The notes under the pieces are model-generated. The model had not been told where the DNA came from and did not search any database. It saw nothing but the letters and a program-made list of their open reading frames with translations. A stretch of 64,000 bases of DNA from Macrotis lagotis (lineage: Eukaryota; Chordata; Mammalia; Peramelemorphia; Peramelidae): positions 58,095,259 through 58,159,258 of the forward strand of contig NC_133658.1 of assembly GCF_037893015.1 (NCBI RefSeq), in the 5' to 3' direction. Shown in pieces: positions 28,565 through 52,985 of the stretch. How positions within the stretch are numbered: position 1 is the first letter of the stretch; every line of letters begins with the position of its first letter. Both the position numbers and the translations under genes were made by a program.

Positions 28565-28567
<3 letters not shown>

Positions 28568-28606
28568 ATAGATTTTTGACCTGGAAGGGACCTTAGAAAT
28601 CATCTA

Positions 28607-28692
28607 GGCAGATGATGTTTGTTCTCATGATGGTCTTCAGATGCCCCTAGGGTACTGCCGACAAAGCCACATGTCTCAGCTGATGCCAGTAG
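28607..28692 (+). ncRNA. SNORD35A: SNORD35A retro-pseudogene (box C/D snoRNA)
   Basis: Starts ggcagatgatgt (C-box region), contains ctcatgatggtcttcagatg in the middle and ends cagctgatgcc with the D box CTGA at 28680-28683. The terminal ggca (28607-28610) can pair with tgcc (28684-28687). Recognised by recall of the human U35A sequence, whose ends and boxes match; the first G could instead belong to the target duplication. Expression would need a host intron, and none is evident. Confidence 0.85.
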
Positions 28693-28892
28693 GCACAAGA
28701 GGGAGGGTTCCAGCTACCTGGTTCTGGTTCCTGGACCCACAATCAAGTTTGTTTGTTCTCTCCTACAGAAACTGCACAAGCAAGCTGAGAAGAATGTGGA
28801 GGGAAAAATCCATAAATACACAAAGGTGCTGAAGAAGTACGAACTGCTGGTGTGAGTCCAATAAAGTCTATCCTCTATGGCAAAAAAAAAAA
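28608..28892 (+). pseudogene. RPL13A: Retroposed SNORD35A + intron + RPL13A last exon (snoRTE)
   Basis: The insert begins at the 5' end of a SNORD35A-like box C/D snoRNA. It continues through about 76 bp of intron ending in a polypyrimidine tract and acag acceptor (28741-28768), then an exon encoding the C-terminus of ribosomal protein L13a (28769-28855), a short 3' UTR with AATAAA at 28860-28865, and a poly-A tail (28882-28895). The 11 bp duplication aaatcatctag is at 28597-28607 and 28893-28903. In known mammals SNORD35A is hosted in an RPL13A intron. Retroposed snoRNAs carrying the rest of the intron and downstream exon are a described class; this copy fits it exactly. It cannot encode L13a and the snoRNA is probably not expressed here. 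Confidence 0.9.
28769..28855 (+). pseudogene. RPL13A: RPL13A terminal exon, processed copy
   Basis: Encodes 28 residues then TGA, including KQAEKNVEGKIHKYTKVLKK and ending ELLV. The C-terminus of L13a in other mammals is closely similar (KQAEKNVEKKIDKYTEVLK ... LLV). The frame is open but only the last exon is present. Substitutions such as KK to GK and D to H suggest neutral drift. Confidence 0.88.
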
Positions 28893-29056
28893 AAATCATC
28901 TAGTCAAATCCCTTCATTTTACAAGTGAGAAACTGAGATCAACTGAGACTAAATGGCTTAATCATAGTCACATAGGTAGCAAGTAACAGACCTGGAATCA
29001 AACACAGGTCCCCAAATCCAGGGCTGATTCCATGGCAATCACTAGGCAAATGTATA

Positions 29057-41756: not shown

Positions 41757-42256
41757 AGAATTGGATAACTCAGCTGCATCTTTTCACCACTGGTTAGTCA
41801 AGACCAACAAGGATCTGGACCGAATTGTCAACTACATGCAAACAAATCTAACTGGATCCTTGAAGCTAGTGAATTCTTAATACTTCCAAGCAAAAGGTTT
41901 GGGGACATGAAAACGCCTTCAAGAAATAAATGCAAATACAGAAAGACTCTCAACTTACTCTCCCAATTCACCCTGCATACCTGTAAGTTGGATGTACCAA
42001 GGGCAACTATATCTTCCCCTGGAGAACTTAATGTTATTATGGGGAATCTTCTAATGTCATTGGCTCAAATCCCAATTTCAATATATTGCCATAAATATCA
42101 TTCACCAGAGATTACTACCTCAATGTTAGTTAGTCAATTAATATCAATTAGATTTATAAAAGACTATTTTCTAAGGGGAAAAAAAGACAGCAAAAGAGAA
42201 TTACCAATGCATCATCCCAAATGGCAACACATGCTCCTTTATATCTACTATCTGTG
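41757..42256. other. No gene seen
   Basis: The 116-residue frame at 41907-42257 has no recognisable domain and runs into the purine tract. Confidence 0.45.
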
Positions 42257-42257
42257 A

Positions 42258-42312
<55 letters not shown>

Positions 42313-42900
42313 GAAGGAAGGAAGGAAGGAAGGAAGGAAGGAAGGAAGAAAGAAAGAGAGGGAGGAAGGTCAGAGGAAGGAAGGAAGGAAGGAAGAAAGG
42401 AAGGGAAGTATGAGGGGAGGAGGGAGGGAAGAAGGAAGGAAGAAGGAAGGGGGAGGGGGGGAGGAAGGAGGGAGGGAAAGAGAGAAGGGAGAGACAGAAG
42501 GGAGTAAGGGAGAAAAGAAAGGAAGGGAGGGAGGGAGGGGAGGGAAGGTAGGAAGAAGGAAGGAAGGTAGGAAGGAAAGAAAGAAGGAGGGAGGGAGAGA
42601 AGGTGGGAGGGAGGGAAGGAAGAAAAGAAGAAAAAGAGGGAGGAAGAGAGGAAAGGAGGAAAGAGGGAAGGATGGAGGGAGGGAATGAAGGAAAGAAGGA
42701 AGGAAGGAAGGAAGGAAGGAAGGAAGGAAGGAAGGAAGGAAGGAAGGAAGGAAGGAAGGAAAGGGGGAGGAAGAAAGTAAGGGAGGAAGGAGGGAAGAGA
42801 GAGGGGAGGAAGGAGAGAAGGAGGGAGGGAGGGAAAGAAGGGGAGGGAGGGAGGAAGAAAGGAAGGAAGGAAAGAGGAAAGGAAGGAAGAAGAGAAAGAT
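42257..42900 (+). repeat. 640 bp polypurine tract, (GAAA)n/(GGAA)n
   Basis: Starts with about fourteen GAAA units, then GGAA, GGGA and GA mixtures. Pyrimidines are very rare over more than 600 bases (a few single c or t). Long frames on both strands (238 residues minus, 155 and 99 plus) are artefacts. Confidence 0.97.
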
Positions 42901-43450
42901 GAAGATAGAAAGGGCAATTTAGAGGAAAGGGAAGTCTATTGAAAGTTTTTAGTGAACTGGTTTAAAGTTCCCATTTAGACTTGATTTTCAGGGGAAAAAT
43001 CAAATTTATTTTAACTTTTCTTTTGTTTTTACAAAAAAAAGAATTTGTGATTAGCATAAAAAGACTAATAAAACTTTCAAAACCATTTTATTACTATTAA
43101 TACATAAAATAATTATTATATAAATATAATTATTAGTAATAAAATATTTTAAATCAAGTTTGTTGAAATGATTATTTTTCACAATTGATAGTTTCTAAGT
43201 TTTCTAGCAAGAAATTTGTGTTTTGCTATGCAAGCCCAAAGCAATCCTTTCCACTTATTCATTCAGATCATTGGACCAGAAAGTTCCCAAAAAAGAACAC
43301 TCCCTTACTATCCCAGAGCACAAGCCCTGCAACCATTGACAGAAGCACCCCTGGAGGAGAGAGGGTCTGCCATCTCCACCATCAGTCACATAAACTGACA
43401 CACAGGTCAGCCCAAGAACCCCAGCTACAGCAGCATCCCCTAGCTTTCTT
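42901..43450. other. No gene; AT-rich
   Basis: 43080-43160 is almost entirely A and T. No named repeat. Confidence 0.45.
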
Positions 43451-52829: not shown

Positions 52830-52985
52830 CAGGATCTTAGATTTCAGGCTGGAAGGGGCCTTAGCAGCCATCTAATCCAAACCCTTCATTTTACAGATAA
52901 GGAAATTGAATGCCAGATCTTAGATGACTTGACCAAAGCCACACAGATAGTAAAGGAAGTATAATTTGAAAACAGATTCTCTGAC
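52830..52985 (-). repeat. CORE-SINE-like repeat, reverse
   Basis: Reads gatttcaggctggaaggggc, cttagcagccatctaatcca and ttcattttacagataaggaa: the intact counterpart of the element split at 28607. Confidence 0.68.

Follow-up and report, generated by a model that had tools for sequence, protein, structure and literature searches.

Positions 28597-28903 of the window, by which we mean the whole 64-kb stretch of DNA analysed, hold a compact insertion on the + strand, built of a direct repeat, the box C/D snoRNA SNORD35, an intron remainder, an exon, an AATAAA signal, a run of 14 As and a second direct repeat (Table 1). The insert is confirmed as a retrocopy of an RNA fragment which comprised a snoRNA, what followed it in the host intron, and the terminal exon of the host, a ribosomal protein gene.

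Table 1. Features of the insertion and of its surroundings (window positions)
Feature	Position	Strand	Basis or remark
5' target-site duplication AAATCATCTAG	28597..28607	+	exact 11-mer, elsewhere in window only at 28893
Retrocopied SNORD35 box C/D snoRNA, full length	28607..28692	+	RF00211 match; 78/86 identical to parent
snoRNA guide stretch	28623..28636	+	14 bp with 28S rRNA, two G-U pairs
Box D CTGA	28680..28683	+	sequence reading and Rfam alignment
RPL13A intron 7, 3' remainder up to pyrimidine tract and ACAG acceptor	28693..28768	+	alignment to parental intron piece
RPL13A last exon, coding part and TGA stop	28769..28855	+	parental exon 8 alignment; uL13 C-terminus; spliced copies
RPL13A 3'UTR, AATAAA at 28860-28865	28856..28881	+	25/26 identical to parent
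Poly-A tail, 14 As	28882..28895	+	parent has only two As here (GGCAACTGG)
3' target-site duplication AAATCATCTAG	28893..28903	+	exact 11-mer
Older interspersed repeat broken by the insertion, minimum extent	28565..28948	.	rejoined site read through by five further stretches of the window
Repeat copies reading through the empty site	52834-52895, 41396-41341, 19686-19618, 1116-1159, 58148-58089		window alignment

The snoRNA, proposed as SNORD35A in an earlier note on this DNA, proved to be a full-length SNORD35, which matches RF00211 over positions 1-88 of 88 with 87.2 bits, where the gathering score is 36, and is the sole match at the gathering score in an Rfam profile search of the 64-kb window. 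The box D and the ggca/tgcc terminal stem pointed out in that note are both read in the sequence, GGCA at 28607-28610 pairing with TGCC at 28684-28687. Matches to mir-297, mir-466, Fibrobacter-1 and mir-1892 were rejected, all being below their gathering scores; those to mir-297 and mir-466 overlie a CA/TA repeat. Elsewhere in the window, a long purine/pyrimidine-rich tract with repetitive open frames on both strands occupies 42201-42917.

Downstream of the intron remainder, 28769-28852 encodes 28 amino acids, KLHKQAEKNVEGKIHKYTKVLKKYELLV, followed by the stop at 28853-28855. This peptide matches the C-terminus of uL13/L13a (best E 3.5e-6 among solved-ribosome chains; 21 distinct sequences with E up to 0.01) and has no Pfam match. 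The proposed L13a terminal exon with AATAAA and poly-A is thus borne out by the uL13 match and by an untemplated tail, in which 14 As follow GGC at the known cleavage site, where the parent reads GGCAACTGG.

The 11-bp duplication, a hallmark of L1-type retrocopies and likewise anticipated, is exact, and its 11-mer is found within the 64 kb only at the two borders of the insert; an exact 11-base repeat with 5 positions of slop occurs by chance in 50 of 400,000 random position pairs. The G at 28607 is common to the 5' repeat (as its last G) and the snoRNA (as its first G), which leaves the 5' border open by 1 base; the 3' border is open by 3 bases, as the tail and the 3' repeat overlap in three As. 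When the flanks are rejoined, they form a continuous repeat, which we judge to be SINE-like, and five other stretches of the window align across the junction (E 2.6e-10 to 5.7e-6).

The parental RPL13A gene and its other retrocopies

With the insert as query against the genome (3.66 Gb in 607 contigs), the best match besides the insert itself was C1:915692843-915693110 on the minus strand (query 11-287). This parent locus is a multi-exon RPL13A gene, in which seven exon stretches were found by tblastn with the human protein as query. The gene holds five box C/D snoRNAs in the Rfam search; human RPL13A is known to have only four snoRNAs. As the earlier note had expected, the last RPL13A intron contains SNORD35 and matches 28693-28768; its number, 7, counts the tblastn exon blocks plus an assumed first exon. 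A second SNORD35-family snoRNA lies in RPL13A intron 3 (L009:4223-4313 in the parent locus, minus strand; 58.4 bits, above gathering); over 14 bp and without any G-U pair, its guide matches the 28S stretch that the guide of the copy pairs with.

The insert is colinear with the parent from snoRNA base 1 or 2 to the poly-A site, the host-intron remainder and the downstream exon included. It differs from the parent by 21 mismatches in 263 aligned positions and by gaps confined to the intron part, with 3 gap runs in the segment-wise alignment and 4 in another. In the intron remainder of 76 bases, 57 positions match, 7 are mismatched and the internal gaps form 3 runs; the exon segment is identical to parental exon 8 in 82 of 87 positions. 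Parental sequence 5' of the snoRNA or past the poly-A site (CTGGACTCG) was not found in the window copy. In exon 8 and the 3'UTR together, 6 of 113 positions differ; with about 2.2e-9 substitutions per site and year, this suggests an insertion age of roughly 25 million years, to be read as an order of magnitude only.

Altogether we found 14 RPL13A retrocopy loci, of which only the window copy shows intron sequence; these counts are lower bounds, and in old copies the intron may have changed too much to be recognised. The other 13 loci are ordinary processed pseudogenes of the same parent and, unlike the window copy, have no intron 7 or snoRNA match. They reach exon 2 in seven cases and exon 3 in three, and three match over exon 8 alone; one of the 13 has no exon 8 match. 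Nine of the 13 end at query 1912-1917, thereby sharing the 3' end zone of the window copy, which ends at 1917. In the retrocopy at C9:404 Mb, query 1613 is joined directly to 1802, and this spliced join demonstrates that 28693-28768 is a true intron. Three RPL13A retrocopies (C9:286794463-286794622, C9:536595855-536596016 and C1:346239725-346239874) extend 44 bases beyond the usual poly-A site, to the query end, which suggests use of a downstream poly-A site.

Similar copies of other snoRNAs

Further copies were sought in the genome with six snoRNA families (SNORA70, SNORA25, SNORD36, SNORA24, SNORD33 and SNORA7; 41-70 candidates scored in each) and with two host-gene DNA queries. The family searches would catch copies starting further upstream as readily, while copies starting inside the snoRNA could be missed. 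Three more copies composed of a snoRNA and downstream sequence were detected, two of SNORA70 (L083 and L084) and one of SNORA25 (L086).

SNORA70 gave three matches, namely the parent in RPL10 (L082, with protein matches) and the two weaker copies. L083 (C8:78286000-78291000) contains at 2199-2917 SNORA70, the intron rest, the next exon, the last exon and an A-run; the intron between its two RPL10 exons is spliced out and the snoRNA intron is kept. It is old and interrupted by a later insertion, and its similarity to the parent runs from SNORA70 base 8 to the poly-A region; its upstream 300 bases show no similarity to the parental upstream sequence beyond that of shuffles (46 of 200 reach the score). 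L084 is more diverged (SNORA70 at 50.5 bits, model positions 1-135). Its exon similarity to RPL10 is reached by 0 of 200 shuffles, and neither upstream similarity (119 of 200) nor an intron remainder (161 of 200) is detectable by the same test. Before the shuffle test, its alignment extended 5' of the snoRNA; the edge is placed by the family match, which begins at position 1, and by the absent upstream similarity.

SNORA25 gave two matches, L085 (C1:764.5 Mb) and L086 (C1:13.9 Mb), the latter with 71.8 bits, under the gathering cut-off of 85. What the two have in common starts one base ahead of the family match and extends some 170 bases beyond its end; upstream they share nothing. By manual reading, L086 ends at the 3' side in an A-rich run and an imperfect duplication (GGTTAAAGAAC / GGGTAAAGAAG), and L086 is taken as the probable retrocopy, L085 as the probable parent. 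Upstream parental sequence was thus detected in none of the four copies, and the full design of snoRNA, intron and exon is seen in two of them, the window copy and L083. The edges of L083, L084 and L086 are uncertain by several bases because these copies are diverged.

No extra copies came from the family searches with SNORD36 (2 matches within 0.5 kb on C1), SNORA24 (1 match), SNORD33 (2 matches, both within the parental RPL13A) and SNORA7 (1 match). The DNA query from the host region of SNORD36, presumably RPL7A, gave 9 retrocopy loci with separate exon-like blocks and one interspersed repeat, none of them over the snoRNAs. The RPL10 DNA query gave 26 retrocopy loci including L083, the other matches being confined to exon blocks or a repeat. 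Neither L084 nor the snoRNA part of L083 was picked up by this search, and further old copies of the snoRNA-intron-exon design, or the intron portions of such copies, can escape the counts. Loci L047-L076 were judged from the match table alone, and L010 was set aside.

The template RNA and the present state of the copy

The 5' end of the window copy coincides with that of the snoRNA, the first matching base being snoRNA base 1 or 2. We consider it probable that the insert was made from a snoRNP-trimmed, polyadenylated and intron-retaining RPL13A RNA copied by LINE-1-type machinery. An RPL13A pre-mRNA would have kept its last intron and lost its 5' part up to the SNORD35 snoRNP, most likely to a 5'-3' exonuclease (XRN2 or XRN1) halted by the bound snoRNP, and cleavage with polyadenylation at the usual RPL13A site would have made its 3' end. 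An RNA of this build, with the snoRNA at the 5' end followed by the rest of intron 7, exon 8 and poly-A, would resemble the SPA class; both this likeness and the nuclease we infer from the ends of the DNA copy. LINE-1-type target-primed reverse transcription into the older repeat would then have produced the 11-bp duplication. The L1-type machinery invoked in the earlier note stands as the putative enzyme source insofar as the poly-A tail and the duplication fit it; the bottom-strand nick, which would be GATTT/CTAAGG, has a T-rich priming side and is only a partly canonical site (ATTT/CT) in comparison with the L1 endonuclease consensus TTTT/AA.

The presence of intron sequence might also be expected from a duplication of the RPL13A 3' end at the DNA level, by segmental duplication or gene conversion; however, the insert stops at the poly-A site, carries an A-tail that the parent does not encode, is flanked by an 11-bp duplication within a repeat and has no parental sequence past the poly-A site, so that such an origin can hardly be credited. 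A more serious rival is that an intron-retaining RPL13A mRNA was reverse-transcribed and its cDNA randomly truncated, the end falling at the snoRNA start by chance. Truncation at the 5' end is common in L1 products, exon 8 alone is found in 3 of the 13 other RPL13A loci according to the match table, and the window copy was singled out for its neat start. Strong truncation is nevertheless a minority outcome here because 10 of the 13 other copies reach exon 2 or 3, and chance would place an end so close to the snoRNA start, one or two bases away at most, only a few times in a thousand by a rough estimate. Since the three additional copies, from two other snoRNAs, likewise have nothing upstream, the absence of upstream sequence in all four favours a template trimmed to the snoRNP, four being a small number, and we regard random truncation as unlikely.

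Within the preferred reading of a trimmed template there is a variant, compatible with it, in which the RNA was a first-step splicing intermediate (lariat plus 3' exon) that escaped the second step and was debranched and trimmed to the snoRNP. It would produce the same ends, and the normal snoRNA route does debranch and trim introns, as described in PMC11028025; yet it demands stalled splicing and debranching of an intermediate, and we give it some, though the lesser, chance. Trimming of an unspliced RNA after cleavage would leave the same DNA, and L083, with the downstream intron spliced and the snoRNA intron unspliced, fits both templates alike. Of the trimmed splicing intermediate suggested earlier, the snoRNP trimming gains some independent support from the four copies lacking upstream sequence. 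The template need not have been a strict splicing intermediate; it only needs intron 7 unspliced, the 5' part lost and polyadenylation at the normal site.

Whether the copy now works as a SNORD35 gene under selection, which would be compatible with its origin as a retrocopy, is a separate matter. Box D, the terminal stem and the 14-bp guide are all intact, and the copy scores above the parental SNORD35 (87.2 against 84.6 bits), but at a divergence of about 5% intact boxes are expected without selection. Within the 14 bp paired to 28S rRNA, the copy has two G-U pairs and the parent one. The target stretch for this pairing we take from the human sequence, and a 22-base version of it has one exact occurrence in the genome, within a partial LSU rRNA match. 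At the 8 snoRNA differences, the Rfam consensus base is kept by the copy at about 3 and by the parent at about 3, by manual reading of the alignment. No sign of function was seen, and ORF listing brought up no host intron or promoter for the copy. A working gene seems quite improbable, and the copy is probably inert today.

Relation to known systems

The name snoRTE belongs to the platypus, RTE-mobilised kind with a 3' tail from an RTE LINE; the insert ends in the RPL13A 3'UTR and poly-A, with no such tail, and the earlier use of this name for it calls for correction. Weber named snoRNA retrocopies snoRTs, as PMC2832892 and PMC2730528 cite, although PMC2832892 writes "snoRTs/snoRTEs" together and PMC11028025 uses "snoRT" also for snoRNA retaining transcripts.

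The insert illustrates cleanly an event of a known kind and is probably the fossil of an unusual RNA processing product. In the literature searched, where Weber 2006 and Luo and Li 2007, the likeliest places for similar copies, were outside the scope, no report of the window copy was found. What makes the case unusually clear is that parent, copy and spliced sister copies occur in one assembly, so that the RNA, itself long gone, has its two ends fixed to within 1-3 bases. The insert shows a route by which a snoRNA can be carried elsewhere along with a splice acceptor and a terminal exon, and a set of such copies makes the frequency of snoRNP trimming and polyadenylation of unspliced snoRNA host RNAs testable from genomes alone.

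Perhaps such retrocopies are a general genomic record of SPA-like RNAs from ribosomal protein genes, whose pre-mRNAs, with a snoRNA intron left unspliced, would be trimmed to the snoRNP, polyadenylated and brought to the workplace of L1; we hold this to be an evenly balanced proposition. The 3' consensus of about 490 bp in the SNORA70 paralogs of rhesus and mouse, for which PMC2832892 proposed a non-TE mechanism, would then represent partly spliced RPL10 RNA. In the genome studied here, the distance from the snoRNA end of RPL10 to the poly-A region is about 455-480 nt, by the ends of spliced copies and the RPL10 model.

The architecture of the insert is already in print and not new in kind, as the passage of PMC2832892 on the rhesus SNORA24b retrogene of snhg8, which is read there as partially processed hnRNA, describes the same order of a 5' snoRNA, the 3' part of the host intron, downstream exons and poly-A, with a target-site duplication and an L1-like site. 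The rhesus copy has a box H/ACA snoRNA, the host snhg8 and two spliced downstream exons, whereas the window copy has a box C/D snoRNA, a ribosomal protein host and one exon. With the snoRTs (Weber 2006, as cited in PMC2832892, PMC2730528 and PMC3476530) it shares a LINE-copied snoRNA, poly-A and a target-site duplication. The mir-373 retrocopies likewise combine a 5' end set by RNA processing (a Drosha cut, as inferred there) with a 3' poly-A, but they derive from a microRNA precursor and, unlike the window copy, include no host exon in the passage of PMC7692494 concerned. The putative template itself is comparable to the SPA lncRNAs of PMC11028025 (SPA1, SPA2 and the SNORD86 SPA) in its 5' snoRNA end and 3' poly-A. 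According to that source, XRN2 is halted in SPA1 and SPA2 by the snoRNP at the 5' end and polyadenylation takes place downstream; the cytosolic SPA with SNORD86 arises through alternative splicing; RPL13A has 0 occurrences in its main text. These lncRNAs were seen as RNAs in cells, whereas the RPL13A template is known here from its DNA trace.
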